Notes under the pieces: model-generated
Database searches by the model: none
Told to the model about the DNA's origin: nothing
Seen by the model: only the letters and a program-made list of their open reading frames with translations
In this document: in pieces, positions 1 to 47,334 of the stretch
How positions within the stretch are numbered: the stretch's first letter is position 1
Layout: each line of letters opens with the position of its first letter
Made by a program: the position numbers and the translations under genes
Origin: Terriglobia bacterium
GTDB taxonomy: Bacteria > Acidobacteriota > Terriglobia > JAIQFV01
Assembly: GCA_020073085.1 (NCBI GenBank)
Contig: JAIQFV010000029.1
Coordinates: 1 to 47,334 of the forward strand
Reading direction: 5' to 3'
DNA: 47,334 bases

Positions 1-289
1 GATGGTCCCAGAACAGGGCCTTGCCGAGCACGATGGCGGCCTGCCGGTCGACCACATAGTTGGACAGGTTGGCGGGCAAAGGAACTGGAAAGTTCCGGAG
101 CGAACCCGGAGGTGGTGGCGGATCCGGCCCGAATCTTCCCCGCTGGCCCCATACCCTTCCGCTTGCCGAGGCCAACACTAAGAAAACCACCACAGCAGTG
201 AACCATCTCCCGATCGAACTCCTTGGGATGGCCTTTCTGGGTCCTATAATTACTCCATCCCCTCTTGCTACCCGTTTGGTTTCGTTCAT
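1..289 (-). CDS. Di-haem cytochrome c peroxidase-like protein (N-terminal fragment, runs off the left edge)
   Basis: Reading the minus strand from an ATG at 289 gives 96 codons open to the window edge. A good ribosome site (AGGAG, 296-300) precedes it. The start has a basic n-region, a hydrophobic stretch at about residues 30-46 and a possible cleavage site after VWG, so the protein is exported. A proline-rich linker follows, then LSNYVVDRQAAIVLGKALFW. That string (Asn-Tyr, Ala-Ala, LGKALFWD) is typical of the N-terminal part of MauG/CcpA-type di-haem peroxidase-like proteins, just before the first CxxCH. The haem motifs themselves lie outside the window, so the haem content is inferred. The gene has its own sigma-54 promoter 50 bases upstream and neighbours a cytochrome c/SCO fusion and a multicopper oxidase, so a redox role in the periplasm fits. 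Confidence 0.6.
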   Translation of the reverse strand, partial: MNETKRVARGDGVIIGPRKAIPRSSIGRWFTAVVVFLVLASASGRVWGQRGRFGPDPPPPPGSLRNFPVPLPANLSNYVVDRQAAIVLGKALFWDH

Positions 290-1083
290 CTTTGACTCCT
301 TCTTTGCATACGGCCCTTCCCGTTCACTATTGGATAAGGGCAACCCACATGCCAAATAGGTTTATGATCAATGGTTTCTCTCCGAAAGGATGGCCCGAAT
401 CATATGAACCTGGACCAAGAACTCCACAACGTCTATAGATCTGTCGTAAACACAAGCAAAAGCAATAAATTACATTCAAGAAGGCATCCTGAATCCCTGC
501 CCGGATCCTAAATCATCCGGTCAATGTGAAACCCTCTGCCGGTCAGACCATACAGGCAACTCCCAAAAACTGGCACCTTTCTTCATTCTTTTCGCGCACA
601 CAATCGCGAAAAATGCTTGTTAAGTCCCTTAATTGATTATGGTCCCGAAGGATTAGTGCGATGGCGAGCCATGGTGCCCCACTCGACGAAAGGAGGCGCG
701 AGAGCCTATCGAGTACCAGCTTAATTGACTCGCGTGGACTGGAGGGGGGGCATGTATTTCAAAACAACTGGGACACGGAAAGGCGCTGTTTATTCAGATC
801 CAAGCGCCTGGACATTCGATCACGCAGGTTGGACTGGAATTTCTTGACATAAATTCTCAATGGACTAAAAGGAATTACAGCGGAACGGACATTTACACTT
901 GTTTGGGAGGCTTTATGGGAACTAAAGATAAATGAGGAGAAGCGACCGTTTCCCTACCGCGGGCGGAGCTATCTCCTCATTCGGAACTCAAATTCAGACT
1001 AGAAGCAAACCACCGGAGCCCACCACAAAAACCCTTCCATTAGGTCCTACCATTCCATCGAAGCGATAAAGCCCCATTGCCAC
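290..1083. other. Intergenic region between the SCO fusion gene and the peroxidase-like gene
   Basis: About 800 bases without a convincing gene. It holds the sigma-54 site at 339-354. Short open frames here lack ribosome sites and recognisable protein features. No clear terminator hairpin was found behind the gene ending at 1084. Confidence 0.6.
339..354 (-). promoter_or_regulatory. Sigma-54 (RpoN) -24/-12 promoter of the peroxidase-like gene
   Basis: The minus strand reads TGGCATGTGGGTTGCC. It has the invariant GG and GC with the canonical 10-base spacing and matches TGGC-N7-TTGC fully. The predicted transcript start is near 328, leaving a leader of about 39 bases before the ATG at 289. It is one of five such sites in this cluster. 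Confidence 0.7.
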
Positions 1084-2214: not shown

Positions 2215-2461
2215 AGTCGACTCCTCCTCCAGCTTTGATTTATTTGTCTCTGGTGGGTCAACAACCTGCGGGGCCATTTGTTCTTGGCAAGACTTCGCTC
2301 CGACGGCCGATCCTGAGTCCGCGCTCTTGCCTTCCCGTCTGCGAACTCATCGACAAATTCCGGCCATCAGCAACACGGTGTCACAGCGACCTCTTTGAAA
2401 TCCTAAACCCACCTCCAGTCGCTCCCATTACTTACATCGCGTCATCTGATTTCTTGAAGAG

Positions 2462-2498
2462 GGCTGGCGAGCCGCCCGCAAGCATAAACTCGCCAGCC
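2462..2498 (-). terminator. Strong hairpin between oxidase 1 and the SCO fusion gene
   Basis: A perfect 10-bp inverted repeat, GGCTGGCGAG (2462-2471) and CTCGCCAGCC (2489-2498), with a 17-base loop lies just behind the oxidase stop codon. No T-run follows on the minus strand. It may be a weak terminator or a 3' stabilising hairpin that sets the oxidase/SCO ratio in a shared transcript. Confidence 0.5.
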
Positions 2499-2522
2499 AG
2501 TTGTTTTGCTCCATCCACGACC

Positions 2523-4784
2523 TTAAAAGGCGGTCGGGAGGATGTCGTCCGGTTGGACGAACGTGACACCCTGCGGCTTCGGGATCGGAGTCGGGAGCGG
2601 CCTCAGGAATGCACCGCCCGAGTCGTCGATTTCCCATCGCAAGAGCATGGCGTTGTCCTCGTGCACGGTGTTGTGGCAGTGCTCCATGAACATTCCACCC
2701 CAATCGCGAAACTGCATCGTAATGGTGACGCTTCCCGCCGGACGCAGGCGATAGACGTCCTTGCGGCCCCGCTCCCACGCCGGCACATTGCTGAGGCTGC
2801 CGTTGCGGGCAAGGATCTGGCCTTCCTCAAAGTGGATGTGGATGGGGTGATCCCAGCCGCCACCACCATTTTGCAAGGTCCAGATTTCGCGAGTTCCGAA
2901 TTTGGGCGCCGCCGAGACCCGGCCGAAATCCGCGTTGAGCGTTGGCCCTTGATTGTCCGTCTTAATACCCCAGGGACCAAAGAAGGACGAAACCGGATCG
3001 AGCGTTGTCTGGGTACCGCCACTGCCGAAGTTAAATACCCGCTCGCGCGCCACGGGGATATTCGACAGGTCGGGATTCGGGATCATGGTCGCAGGTACCT
3101 GGCTCTGATCGGGCTGCGCCGGATTCCGCGCAATTCGAAACTCCAGGAATCTCCCGACGCAAGGATCTGCGGACTTGCCGGACAAAGCATCCGACAACGA
3201 AAGGTCTTTGGACGGTTTCTTTCCGTTCTGGTGCTCGCACAGGTTCACCATCCAAACCTTCTGCCCGATGCTGTAACGGGAGAAGTCGATAACGATGTCA
3301 TACCGCTCGGCGATCCCCTGTTCGTCCAGCTGCGTGAGTGGCACCGGCTGCGGGAACAAGTTGCCGTCGTTGGCGATCTGAATCATTGGTGAGCCGTCGC
3401 TCAGCGCCACCTTGAAGAAACGGGAAACACTGGCGTTGAGAATGCGGAAACGATACTTCCGCCGCTCCACCTCGAAGTAAGGCTTGTAGAGCAGGTTCAC
3501 CGTCATCACATCACCCAGGAACCCGTCAAAGTCGAAAATATCAAAGTACAGTTGTCCGGCACCATCCCATGCCTTATCGGCCAGCATGAGGTTCACGTCA
3601 TAGTCCAGGTTGCCCCAATCATTGGCCGTGCCGCTGGGCAGGCGCAGGTTCACGCCGTCATTGATCGACTCGTTGCCGCGATCCAATCCGCTGTAGATGT
3701 TGAACATCGCGGCGTTGCCCTTGTACACGTTCTGCGAGGTAAAACTGAACATGTGATCGTGGAACCAGTGGGTGCTCATGGTCTCGTGCCAGTCGCCCGC
3801 AACCTTGATGAGACCGCCACTCCCGTCAGGGGTGCTGGCTTTGGGATCCGTCGCTCCCGTGTTGAAGGAAGTCCAACCGGCCAACACAACCGGCCAGTGA
3901 TAATCATAGAACTGGCCCGGGAAGAAGTAGGCGCCCGTGAAGCCGTCGTTTTCCGCCCCGTGGTGCCCGTTATGCTCGTGGGTGCTGATGGTATTGGTTC
4001 CAAAGCCGCCGTTCTGGCTCCTGTTGAAAGGCAGCTTGTTGTGGTGACGGAATAGAACCGGCTCCGCGTATCGTGCCTGCACCAGCTTGGGTGGGATGGT
4101 TCCATTGAAGGTCCACACCGATTGAATGCCCTGAACCGGCAGCTTCGGGTGGAACTTAAACGGGATCGCCTGGGTCGGGTCGATGCCGGAATTAAGACTA
4201 GACGGCACCGCAGGATTGTAGACGTAGTTAGTCTGGGCCGGCATTTGAGAGGCTTCTACGACTACCTTTGGTGGAAACTGGCTAAACCTCTGGTGTGCCC
4301 AGATAGCTCCCGGAGGACGCCCTTCGATGGGCCCGAATTGATCGGTTCGCCCTCCAACCAGCGCAGGATTCAAATTCTGCATCGTTTGGTTGGCTTGGGC
4401 TGTCGGCTGATATACCACACCATTCACAGGCTCCAGCGGGAACAGGCCCTGTCCATCAGGCTGCTTGCGCGGCAATACATCGAAGCGAGCCATGGGTTGA
4501 GTAAATTCCAACCCGACCAGTCCCGGACTCGGCGGAGCGCCAGTTGGTATATTGTTCCCTCCACCCCCATCGGCGCGCATAGTTCCCACAAAGGGACTGA
4601 GACCACCGATCGGGGCTAGAGCCCCCCCAGTTGTAATGAGACCCCACTTCAGGAGGTCCCGTCGCGTGACTTGGCCTTGGGAGTATGCTTTGACGATCTC
4701 CAGCCGGTTCTTTCTTGCATCCTCCGCCGCCTTGAGCCGCGCCTTAGACGCATTCCATGGCAGAAAGAAGTTTCGCTCGCTCAT
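2523..4784 (-). CDS. Tat-exported multicopper oxidase 1
   Basis: 753 residues. A purine-rich ribosome site (AAGGAGAGG) precedes the ATG at 4784. A twin-arginine signal, TRRDLLKWG (R41, R42), follows a long charged n-region, and a hydrophobic stretch runs to about residue 66, so the enzyme is exported folded. All four copper clusters of the multicopper oxidase family are present: HEH (269-271), HWFHDH (339-344), HPIHIH (646-651) and HCHNTVHEDNAM (702-713) with axial Met713 for the type 1 copper. Such enzymes couple one-electron oxidation of a substrate to four-electron reduction of oxygen at the trinuclear centre. The substrate cannot be told: metal ions and phenolics are both possible. A perfect sigma-54 promoter stands at 4942-4957. 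The Tat motif and copper clusters resemble those of oxidase 2 at 21392, so the two are paralogous, but this one lacks the Gly/Ser linker. Confidence 0.93.
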   Translation of the reverse strand: MSERNFFLPWNASKARLKAAEDARKNRLEIVKAYSQGQVTRRDLLKWGLITTGGALAPIGGLSPFVGTMRADGGGGNNIPTGAPPSPGLVGLEFTQPMARFDVLPRKQPDGQGLFPLEPVNGVVYQPTAQANQTMQNLNPALVGGRTDQFGPIEGRPPGAIWAHQRFSQFPPKVVVEASQMPAQTNYVYNPAVPSSLNSGIDPTQAIPFKFHPKLPVQGIQSVWTFNGTIPPKLVQARYAEPVLFRHHNKLPFNRSQNGGFGTNTISTHEHNGHHGAENDGFTGAYFFPGQFYDYHWPVVLAGWTSFNTGATDPKASTPDGSGGLIKVAGDWHETMSTHWFHDHMFSFTSQNVYKGNAAMFNIYSGLDRGNESINDGVNLRLPSGTANDWGNLDYDVNLMLADKAWDGAGQLYFDIFDFDGFLGDVMTVNLLYKPYFEVERRKYRFRILNASVSRFFKVALSDGSPMIQIANDGNLFPQPVPLTQLDEQGIAERYDIVIDFSRYSIGQKVWMVNLCEHQNGKKPSKDLSLSDALSGKSADPCVGRFLEFRIARNPAQPDQSQVPATMIPNPDLSNIPVARERVFNFGSGGTQTTLDPVSSFFGPWGIKTDNQGPTLNADFGRVSAAPKFGTREIWTLQNGGGGWDHPIHIHFEEGQILARNGSLSNVPAWERGRKDVYRLRPAGSVTITMQFRDWGGMFMEHCHNTVHEDNAMLLRWEIDDSGGAFLRPLPTPIPKPQGVTFVQPDDILPTAF

Positions 4785-43417: not shown

Positions 43418-43525
43418 TGCCGCCCGCGTCTGCATTTTCTTAACACCCCCAGTTGCATCCTTAACCCGAATTCCGATGCTGAAGGCCATGATCAATGTCG
43501 AAGGGGGATTCAATTCCCATTAGTA

Positions 43526-43733
43526 GATGCTTTTCGAATAAGGCTTCTGTCCCTTTGGGCCCGGAGGGCGCTTGCGCCGCGGCGCATAGCCTCGCCTGAG
43601 CTTCTCTTCAGGCCCGGAGGGCCTCTAGAATGGAAGCCCCACCTGAAGCTCTGTCCCGCGCTCTATGCGGGACGGAGCGAGGGTGGGGTACCGGTCGTAA
43701 AAATGACCTCCGAGCCCCGCTGGCGGGGCGAAA
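43526..43733 (+). repeat. GC-rich dispersed element, left copy (with internal duplication)
   Basis: It starts with GATGCTTTTCGA and ends with GGCGGGGCGAAA. It contains two copies of GGCCCGGAGGGC (43555-43566 and 43611-43622), so a 56-base inner part is duplicated. Later parts are AGAATGGAAGCCCC, GCGAGGGTGGGGTAC and GAGCCCCGC. Nested palindromes run through it, and the homologous right copy lies in opposite orientation. Confidence 0.75.
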
Positions 43734-44010
43734 GAATCTGTCGAATGGAGCTTCGGACAACCATCCAATAAATCCACTGTATTTCCCTTCCCGAAATGCT
43801 TTCTCTCCGCATCCCGTTACCCTTCTCGCTTCTCGAATGAGTGGAGCCCAACTCCAGCGGTTGGATTCACGAAGCGATATCGGGACCCTGGAGATTTTCC
43901 TGGCAGCGGAAGCGCCCTCGCAAGGTCTCTTTTCCGCAAGAGTGGCCGGAATCTTTCCGAGTGCAAGGCATCGAAGAGGACGTTCGGTCTAGTTGGAACT
44001 GAGGGCACCG

Positions 44011-44156
44011 TTTCGCCCCGCAAGCAGGGCTCTCACATTTTCTCTCATGTGTACCCCGCCCTCGCCCCGCAAAAAGAAAAACGCGGGGCTCAGACGGGGC
44101 TACATTCTTCGAGCCCTCCGGGCCTGGAGCGACAGCTGCCCCGCTCGAAAAGCATC
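44011..44156 (-). repeat. GC-rich dispersed element, right copy
   Basis: On the minus strand it reads GATGCTTTTCGA, then AGGCCCGGAGGGC, AGAATGTAGCCCC, GCGGGGCGAGGGCGGGGTAC, GAGCCCTGC and GCGGGGCGAAA, in the same order as the left copy but without its 56-base duplication. It carries strong internal stems, for example GCCCCGC with GCGGGGC around an A-rich loop. Confidence 0.75.
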
Positions 44157-44509
44157 GACCGACAGGACAGAGTCAGACGTCTCTCCCTCTTTCTCCGGTC
44201 CCTCCAAAGGCGGAACAATTCCATTCTTCCTTCATTCCATTCCAATCGATCTGAATCGAAGAGCCTAAAGCTTCGTTGGCGCCCTTAACTTCGGAATTCA
44301 GGCTTAATTCAATAGTGATCATCCCGGAGACCGATTGGATTTTCAACCTCACCCTTCTCCATCGGGAGAACAGACGTGGTGAATGTACACTCCACCGATT
44401 CATCGAAAGAGGATTGCAGTTGCAGAATGCACGGGGGTGTTCCAAAATGCATGGCATCGGATCTCAGTACTGCACAGCGACAATCAATTGCCCCGGAAAG
44501 GAAATTGCG

Positions 44510-46084
44510 ATGCCGAAACCTTCTGCAATCATTCTTCGATTGGTTTTTCTGTTGGCAATGGCCATTGGCGTCCCCCATTTTCTTCTGGCGCAGGATAGGA
44601 CTCCCTCCCCCTCATCCATTTCGCAACAGGCCCGTCAATACCGAATTCAACACGATGTGGCCATCCTCAAAGAGTTTGACGATCTCCTTTCGATCCCCAA
44701 TGTTGCATCCGATCTGACCAATATCAAAAGAAATGCGGACGTGCTTAAGGAAATGCTTGGGCGCCGTGGAATTCGCACCCGGCTTCTACAGATCAATAAT
44801 GCCCCTCCGGCTGTTTATGGAGAGTTGCTTTCTCCCGGGGCCCTTCGGACCGTCGCCCTTTATGCGCACTATGATGGCCAACCGGTCGATCCATCACTCT
44901 GGAAGAGCAATCCCTGGAAGATGATGATTCGTGACCGTCCGCTGGAGGATGGTGGCCATGAAATCTCACTCGATTCGTTGAAATCACCGCTGCCGGGTGA
45001 ATGGCGTGTGTACGCGCGCTCGGCCAGTGATGACAAGGCGCCGATCATGGCCTTGCTGGCGGCGCTCGATGCCCTCCGTGCGGGAAACATTTCGCTTTCA
45101 GTCAATCTCAAATTGTTTCTTGAAGGTGAAGAAGAGGCCGGGTCGCCCCATCTGAGGTCCTTCTTTGAAAAATATAAGGACCTCTTGAAAGCTGATGCAT
45201 GGCTTCTGTGCGACGGGCCGGTTCATCAGACCCGCCGTATGCAGCTCTACTTTGGAGCACGCGGCATCACTGAATTGGAATTGACGGTTTATGGCCCCAA
45301 CCGGGCTTTGCATAGCGGGCATTATGGCAACTGGGCTCCCAATCCTATCGCTCTGCTGACTGATCTATTAAGCAGCCTCCGGGACGGCGAGGGTAGAATT
45401 CGCATCCCTCACTTCTTCGATGACGTCAGGCCACTCACCGATTCCGAGCATCGCGCCCTGAATGAGATTCCCGCTGTCGATGCACAACTGCGCCATGATC
45501 TTGGGCTCGCCTGGAACGAGGGGGGGAAAGAAGTACTGGCGGAGCGGATCCTCAGCCCGGCCATCAACTTTCGTGGCATCCAGTCGGGCCATGTCGGCGA
45601 AAAAACAACCAACTCACTCCCGAGCGAGGCGATTGCATCGATCGATTTTCGCTTGGTGCCTGATCAAACACCTGACCGGGTGCGGTCACAGGTCGAAGAG
45701 CACATCCTCCGGCAGGGATTCTTTATCGTTCATGAAACCCCGACGATGGAGATCCGTCGAGCCCATCCAAAGATCGTCAAGCTTGCCTGGGGTCCGGGCT
45801 ATCCCGCAGCGCGCACTTCCATGGATCTGCCGCTTTCCAAAGCTTTGATAAGCGTGATCGAGCAGTCCACTGGTGAGTCTGTAGTCAAAATGCCTTCGCT
45901 GGGTGGAAGCGTCCCGATGTACCTTTTCGTCGAACAGCTCAAGACCCCCGTGATCGGATTCCCCATTGTCAATCATGACAACAACCAGCATGCGTCCGAT
46001 GAGAACTTGCGGCTGCAAAACCTGTGGGACGGAATCGAAATGTTCGCCTCCGTGCTGGCCCGGCTGGGGAAAGTCTGGCCCTAG
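44510..46084 (+). CDS. Exported M20-family metallopeptidase
   Basis: 524 residues from the ATG at 44510, with AAAGGAA upstream and a signal peptide (about 8-28). The M20 dipeptidase fold carries the expected zinc ligands and catalytic residues: H120 and D122 (LYAHYDGQ), D174 (ASDDKAP), E207 and E208 (EGEEEAGS), D235 (LCDGPV) and a C-terminal His in NHDNNQHASDEN. A dimerisation insert lies in the middle (about 245-360). Such enzymes split dipeptides or N-acylated amino acids. The frame is open upstream without signal. It ends just before the IS element. Confidence 0.9.
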   Translation: MPKPSAIILRLVFLLAMAIGVPHFLLAQDRTPSPSSISQQARQYRIQHDVAILKEFDDLLSIPNVASDLTNIKRNADVLKEMLGRRGIRTRLLQINNAPPAVYGELLSPGALRTVALYAHYDGQPVDPSLWKSNPWKMMIRDRPLEDGGHEISLDSLKSPLPGEWRVYARSASDDKAPIMALLAALDALRAGNISLSVNLKLFLEGEEEAGSPHLRSFFEKYKDLLKADAWLLCDGPVHQTRRMQLYFGARGITELELTVYGPNRALHSGHYGNWAPNPIALLTDLLSSLRDGEGRIRIPHFFDDVRPLTDSEHRALNEIPAVDAQLRHDLGLAWNEGGKEVLAERILSPAINFRGIQSGHVGEKTTNSLPSEAIASIDFRLVPDQTPDRVRSQVEEHILRQGFFIVHETPTMEIRRAHPKIVKLAWGPGYPAARTSMDLPLSKALISVIEQSTGESVVKMPSLGGSVPMYLFVEQLKTPVIGFPIVNHDNNQHASDENLRLQNLWDGIEMFASVLARLGKVWP

Positions 46085-47334
46085 CCCGGATTATTCATGA
46101 AGCTCAAAAGAATGCCGTAAATGACCGAAGTTCGCTCGTGTCTGCTCCGGTGAGGGACACGAGAAAACTCTTAGAGTCAGAGAAAATCCGTTTCCAGTCC
46201 TGTTTTGAGTCGAAAAGGATGAAGACGAAGGATCGCGGACTTTTTCAGCGCACACTTCTCCCGGCGGAAGTCAAAGAGGGATTCCACCAGAGGGTCTCTT
46301 TCGATCATGAGGTGGCCCCCAAGGCTGCCGCGATCCGTTTCCAACAAGGAAACCAAGGATAATGAGCGGGCAGATGCAACACGATTCGACGGACCGAGCG
46401 TTTCACCCACACGCCCAGTTTCAAAAGCCGTTCTCGCAGCGTGCTGACCTGGGCGCGCGCCAGCTCGGTCCCCTCGGCGCAATGCCGCAGCTGCTGCATC
46501 AGGACATAGGCGGCCGCCGTCAGCAACACCCGAAACTGATTGGCCCAGAAACTCGTACAGCTGGTGCGATCCATCTCCACACCGTGATGCAGTTCTTTGA
46601 TGTGGTTTTCCATCTGCCCCCGCTGCCGGTAGTGGCGATACACCGTTTCGGGCCGGTAGCGGAGGTTGGTGATCACGAAGCGGGGATTGTCTTTCGCCTC
46701 GTGCACGCCGTCCCGCACGATCTCGGCTTTGATAATGACTCGGCGAGGACGCCGCCATGTTCCCGCCCGATAGCGCGCTTCGGTGTAGACGGCTTCGGTC
46801 TTTCCGCTGAGGCACGATTTCAACCGCGCCAGAGCCAAGGCTCGACGGGCCCGTTTCAGCAGACGCGTATTACCAGCCATGGCCACGACGTATTCCACTC
46901 CGGCGGCCTCCAGAAACTCGAACACCTCGGGGGTGGCGAATCCGGCATCCAGCCGCACGCGCAACGTCGCCCGCGGAAAGGCCTCCCGCAAGCGCCGCAG
47001 GATTCGGGAGAGCAAGGGGATGGCGCCCTCGGCCGGCGCGGCGTTGCCCGGACGCAAGGCGATGGTCCAGAGATACTGCTCCGCCTCGTGGTTGAAGCGC
47101 ATCGTCCCGACCATCGGCAAATAGCACCAGCTGTCGTAGTAGCCGTTGAAGAAGCTCAACTGCTGCTGCCCGTGGGTGGGATCATCGGTCGGATCCAAAT
47201 CGACGGTAATCCACCGGGCTTTCCCCTTCAGCCGTGCGGTGTGATGGGCGATGACCCCGTCGGCCAACGCTTCCCCCAAACGCAGGAGCTCTTGTCGTGA
47301 CACCGCATTTTCAAACCGCGACAAACTGGGCTGA
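46085..47334. mobile_element. IS1380-type insertion sequence (partial, right edge cut)
   Basis: The transposase runs off the right edge. The left end of the element is not fixed: the string CCCGGATTATTCATGA begins right after the peptidase stop codon and is a candidate terminal repeat, but the other end is outside the window. Confidence 0.5.
46305..47334 (-). CDS. IS1380-family transposase (N-terminus outside the window)
   Basis: 343 residues are visible, open to the right edge; upstream codons read QPSLSRFENAVSR, so the start lies outside. The catalytic regions of this DDE family are visible: ITVDLDPTDDPTHGQQQLSFFN, RVRLDAGFATPEVF, and YRQRGQMENHIKELHHGVEMD with the last glutamate. These fit IS1380. 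It moves the element by cutting and joining at the inverted repeats. The sequence shows no frameshift in the visible part. It is transcribed toward the M20 peptidase gene. Confidence 0.9.
   Translation of the reverse strand, partial: QPSLSRFENAVSRQELLRLGEALADGVIAHHTARLKGKARWITVDLDPTDDPTHGQQQLSFFNGYYDSWCYLPMVGTMRFNHEAEQYLWTIALRPGNAAPAEGAIPLLSRILRRLREAFPRATLRVRLDAGFATPEVFEFLEAAGVEYVVAMAGNTRLLKRARRALALARLKSCLSGKTEAVYTEARYRAGTWRRPRRVIIKAEIVRDGVHEAKDNPRFVITNLRYRPETVYRHYRQRGQMENHIKELHHGVEMDRTSCTSFWANQFRVLLTAAAYVLMQQLRHCAEGTELARAQVSTLRERLLKLGVWVKRSVRRIVLHLPAHYPWFPCWKRIAAALGATS

Follow-up and report, generated by a model that had tools for sequence, protein, structure and literature searches.

Among described systems, REPtrons, REPINs and BIMEs most resemble the locus analysed here. 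What is shared is the dispersal of GTAG-tagged hairpins outside genes, their occurrence in tandem clusters and as inverted doublets whose GTAG sides point outwards, and a Y1/HUH gene flanked by the same repeats (here in contig C53 of G001, a congener). A REP, however, measures 20–40 nt, whereas the arm described here is ∼120 nt long and has three hairpins; the transposase is not of class 2 (TnpAREP, or RAYT), and what separates the two arms of the doublet is a transposase gene that has been hollowed out. In length and motifs (∼150 aa; DHVH, WQ and YI--Q--HH) the transposase matches TnpAY1 subclass 1.2, for which the table of Quentin et al. (2018; PMC6006769) gives REP as "no". That subclass is found mostly in Cyanobacteria and Bacteroidetes and is generally without typical terminal IS200 structures (PMC6006769), whereas the genes studied here are flanked by inverted hairpin arms and occur in Acidobacteriota, Verrucomicrobiota and Planctomycetota.

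TIRYT/TIRtrons likewise carry Y1 transposase genes between long, sometimes dispersed inverted repeats (Di Nocera et al. 2013; PMC3733652), and some TIRYT occur in Acidobacteria (PMC3733652). However, subclass 2.1, which has an HTH tail, accounts for 20 of 26 TIRYT (PMC6006769), whereas the present transposase has subclass 1.2 motifs and no such tail. IS200/IS605 elements are related in that our TnpA passes the IS200 family model, but they have subterminal hairpins, no TIRs and no target duplication, in contrast to the long inverted arms of the arm-TnpA-arm unit. Bacterial MITEs (e.g. RUP, NEMIS, Nezha) share with the locus TIRs in the range of 15–30 bp, a short target duplication, an intergenic position and the lack of intact coding capacity, but are usually 70–300 bp long rather than 838 bp and do not contain what appears here to be a nested arm-TnpA-remnant-arm unit.

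We conclude that the locus is a real non-autonomous mobile element, now dead, whose general kind is known (REP/REPtron-type) but in which transposase subclass, three-hairpin arms and hollowed gene are newly combined. It is very probably the core of an element in which REPtron-like inverted arms enclose a gutted Y1/HUH TnpA, the whole lying inside a MITE and having been amplified with it.

Anatomy and dispersal of the arms

The window (the whole 47,334-nucleotide stretch analysed) is the entire contig C29 of a 5.79-Mb Terriglobia genome, G000. A preliminary description had reported two homologous, GC-rich elements facing each other across a 277-base gap. Both the arrangement and the gap length were correct, and every motif it named is present in equal order on opposite strands: GATGCTTTTCGA at 43526(+) and 44145(-), GGCCCGGAGGGC at 43558 and 43611(+) and at 44113(-), AGAATG at 43627(+) and 44103(-), AGCCCC at 43635(+) and 44096(-), GGGGTAC at 43685(+) and 44051(-), and GCGGGGCGAAA at 43723(+) and 44011(-). 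A repeat search independently recovered the inverted arms, and folded as single-stranded DNA both were better than dinucleotide shuffles (z −4.75 and −3.30). The earlier statement that the feature has no coding potential is wrong where the spacer is concerned, since a transposase gene, now decayed, lies there, and the limits given (43526–44156) fall short of the true feature, which extends from 43465 to 44302.

Alignment of 64 copies, the DNA fold and model matches of 109.5 and 114.4 bits, respectively, place the left arm at 43609–43736(+) and the right arm at 44008–44126(-). Read from outside to inside, an arm consists of a small hairpin (H1, GGCCCGGAGGGCC), the linker nCAGAnTGTAG, a large hairpin (H2), a variable stretch, a third hairpin (H3, AGCCCCGCTTGCGGGGC) and the tail GAAAGAA. 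In the left arm H1 lies at 43610–43624, H2 at ∼43636–43688 and H3 at ∼43714–43729, followed by the tail; the right arm, being inverted, carries H3, H2, linker and H1 from inside to outside. H2 has the form CCCC-RYC-TGA ... GAGG-RYGGGG, with an upper stem that varies in length yet retains its self-complementarity in most copies. Most of the 64 aligned arms have GTAG or GTGG at the hairpin foot, whereas the left arm of the window has a degenerate GGAAG in place of the majority GTAG. The 56-base internal duplication previously attributed to the left copy does reflect a repeat, but not a full duplication: it is a partial second arm module (43558–43608, +) lying 53 bp upstream, with 20 nt at 85% identity, and comprises a small hairpin and a degenerate remainder. 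A related central palindrome is present in short TIR elements free of the insert.

Arm copies were counted with a covariance model built from 64 arms (RNAalifold consensus structure), with 150 candidates scored per genome, so that the counts are lower bounds. The preliminary description had held that its reading would fall if no further copies existed; the reading clearly survives this check, as the genome-wide search yielded at least 126 copies at more than 100 places in G000, at least 61 in the congener G001 and at least 30 in G002, from a second genus of the same family, while none of the 150 candidates scored in one genome from another family of the class matched the model. Neighbouring arm pairs at 46 places in G000 included 26 in facing orientation, their GTAG sides outward, 11 in tandem and none in the opposite orientation. 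The arms keep clear of genes, 4 of 84 overlapping an ORF of at least 200 aa as compared to 280 of 470 random positions, which also favours the mobile-element reading. Tandem arrays of H1 modules, with units of ∼26, 32, 46 and 74 bp, were also seen (L092:2027–2880, L085:137–280, L102:2092–2221 and L103:2110–2240), and several assembly contigs terminate within such arrays.

A hollowed TnpA gene and its intact relatives

The spacer between the arms (43737–44007, +) is an internally deleted TnpA gene, its coding remnant spanning ∼43829–44002 and ending in a TGA at 44000–44002. Its third frame, which reads ...VEPNSSGWIHEAISGPWRFSWQ...SFRVQGIEEDVRSSWN up to the stop, is collinear and in frame with a 150-aa Y1/HUH transposase of G001 (tblastn E 1.4e-9), and the consensus of 16 spacers matches the same protein at E 2.5e-12. 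Aligned as DNA to the TnpA gene, the spacer gives a z of 16, as compared to 1.4 for the reverse strand. All 16 spacers, that of the window included, lack the same two stretches of the gene, ∼250 and ∼70 bp long, so a single hollowed ancestor was amplified; with a mutual identity among spacers of 64–88%, this probably happened long ago. Other doublets retain different parts of the gene, the 5′ part in L083 and L087 and the 3′ part in one spacer of L067, and hollowing therefore probably occurred more than once. No TnpA remnant was detectable in eight other doublet spacers outside the main family.

An intact tnpA gene occupies positions 273–725 of G001 contig C53, between arms at 62–161(+) and 732–853(-), and in G000 two fragments of the gene, truncated by contig ends, adjoin arms. 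Over 120 codons the fragment on C15 differs from the G001 gene by 3 amino acids but by 19 synonymous changes; the intact genes thus look constrained, whereas the spacers have decayed. On the same G001 contig, a different insertion lies in the middle of a copy of the same element (2450–3300, L175), bounded by a perfect ∼33-bp inverted repeat, CTGTCCCGCCTAGGCGCATACGCGTCAACCTAA.

The intact protein, with DHVH, AWQ and YIAGQEEHH motifs in its 150 aa, passes the IS200 family model NF033573 (60.6 bits vs a cut-off of 55) and agrees with TnpAY1 subclass 1.2 (DH[IV]H, WQ, YI--Q--HH, ∼148 aa). Assignment to class 2 (TnpAREP/RAYT) was rejected on a score of 19.3 bits against a cut-off of 80 for NF047646 and on a Y motif, YIAGQEEHH, that does not end in NP; class 3 (NHVH, W[TA], YV--EQ, median 178 aa) was rejected because both motifs and length differ. 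Matches to the Y1 transposase family in G000 number 19 and include two on C30 (near 37025 and 40257) and one on C25 (near 32839).

Inverted repeats flank the TnpA gene in 32 of 36 relatives, each scoring above all 100 of its shuffles (lowest score 34), as compared to 1 of 105 random control positions in similar contigs scoring above 30. Many of these repeats, in Verrucomicrobiota, Planctomycetota, Acidobacteriota and Sumerlaeota, keep the order of parts of the window's arms, and in a second sample, of Acidobacteriota, 11 of 16 genes were flanked by inverted repeats. The association of arms with TnpA is not universal, as inverted arms are absent at two relatives from Bacteroidota (L227, L230) and one from Phycisphaerales (L229). 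The inverted repeats at other Y---Q--HH genes (L108, L109, L110) are unrelated in sequence, which suggests that each such gene has its own arm family. Our literature search, which did not extend to most subscription journals, turned up no published report associating subclass 1.2 with inverted arms, and we do not claim priority.

The enclosing element and the competing explanations

The arms and remnant lie within an 838-bp, MITE-like element (43465–44302) whose ends are shared by near-full copies elsewhere in the genome. An inverted-repeat search and TIR pattern matches define 22-bp TIRs at 43465–43486 (+, CCCGAATTCCGATGCTGAAGGC) and 44281–44302 (-, CCTGAATTCCGAAGTTAAGGGC), the end sequence being written CCYGAATTCCGAAGTT; whole-unit copies terminate at CCCGAATTCCGAAGTTGAAGGC and its inverted partner. 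Identical CTTAA duplications abut the element at 43460–43464 and 44303–44307. In G001 the same two neighbour genes (75.5% and 83% identical) adjoin without the element, and the flanks of the window, once joined, align through that junction with a single CTTAA. Because these flanks have diverged, the exact junction is supported by the alignment as a whole; the short junction by itself scores only modestly better than shuffles, 2 of 500 of which do as well. Clear target duplications occur in only a few copies, the flanks of older copies having diverged. The preliminary description had proposed non-autonomous mobile palindromic elements or structured RNAs; the first of these is borne out by dispersed copies, the congener's empty site, the TIRs with their target duplication and the internal deletion of the transposase. 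That description had overlooked the remnant of the transposase, the TIR element around it and the feature's real limits.

We propose that a REPtron-like unit, bounded by the two inverted multi-hairpin arms, once held the 150-aa Y1/HUH TnpA and lost most of that gene through the two internal deletions. The hollow arm-remnant-arm unit, within the short TIR element, was amplified with this MITE at several sites. By analogy with E. coli TnpAREP and IS200/IS605 TnpA, intact TnpA copies elsewhere may recognise the arms as single-stranded DNA hairpins, cutting and religating them close to the conserved linker; such an activity could disperse arms singly, as inverted doublets or in tandem arrays. Since the window composite has no usable TnpA, any movement of it must have been in trans. 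The CTTAA duplication at its ends suggests a different transposase, one that would recognise the TIRs, make the 5-bp duplication and have placed the composite. The TIR matches retrieved from G000 and G001 were further short elements, with no autonomous transposon carrying the same TIRs among them.

The nesting order is inferred from elements that carry one component without the other. Short TIR elements without an arm pair exist: the one on G001 C36 carries a perfect palindrome at its centre, and a ∼130-bp version occupies a site on G000 C5 with flanks matching those of G001 C36, ATTCAA flanking both. As arm pairs without TIRs are also present, the most plausible reading of the composite is that a REPtron-like unit lies within a MITE. 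The order could also be reversed, with the TIR element original and the arms and TnpA its cargo from the start, not nested in an older MITE; several full copies do hold TIRs, arms and remnant together, and arm-like palindromes occur within short TIR elements. We regard this reversal as improbable, because the intact arm-TnpA-arm unit in G001 has no TIR ends close by and because each component occurs without the other.

Less probable still is a host function for the arms, whether as structured non-coding RNAs or as co-opted RNA regulators (terminators or mRNA stabilisers), for which the transposon history would be incidental. Such a role would suit the strong hairpins, the intergenic position between two same-strand genes and the scarcity of arms overlapping a long ORF (4 of 84). 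However, arm copy number and positions differ between congeners, the hairpins flank genes of a transposase family that acts on single-stranded DNA, and they do so in several phyla. An Rfam scan gave no match, a tRNA scan returned none, and we found no evidence of a free structured RNA. One H2 pair changes on both sides in 25 of 64 aligned arms, but there is little compensatory change overall (RNAalifold covariation term −0.77); most other base pairs hardly vary, and covariation is thus weak evidence here. Chance similarity or an assembly artefact might be suspected in a GC-rich genome in which some contigs terminate inside repeats, yet we consider either negligible given the many divergent copies with unique flanks and the presence of relatives in a separate assembly.

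Implications and neighbouring observations

If the dead, nested REPtron-like element is read correctly, it bears on the origin of REP doublets and on the role of non-RAYT relatives of the IS200 transposase. One genus displays an intact arm-TnpA-arm unit, hollowed units with shared deletions, doublets retaining little remnant or none, solo arms and tandem arrays, and subclass 1.2 gains a candidate DNA substrate. We lean towards the broader view that in Acidobacteriota, Verrucomicrobiota and Planctomycetota TnpAY1 subclass 1.2 serves a REPtron-like system of its own, in which the inverted arms have three hairpins (in the order small hairpin - G nn AGA - TAGCC hairpin - small hairpin) and inverted doublets may arise directly by hollowing of the transposase gene.

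Further insertions were seen at and near these elements. At ∼71600–71720 of G000 contig C12 (L062:1910–2030), a further copy of the TIR element carries, in its left part, a small insertion with the ends TATAGAGGATGATAA/TTATCATCCTCTATA. An IS1380-family transposase (NF033539, 284 bits) at 46086–47334 of the window is cut by the contig end, and its second copy in the genome is a short fragment (C13), no intact one having been found. This transposase was rejected as the mobiliser of the TIR element, since its visible end, CCCGGATTATTCATG, differs from the element's TIR and a second intact copy was not found, but a relative of it may have served. The same end begins directly after the TAG stop of an M20 peptidase gene. 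The mechanically called ORF of that peptidase begins at a TTG inside the element, whereas close coding-region similarity to G001 suggests that the true start is an ATG near 44510, the stretch concerned being 44276–44510.
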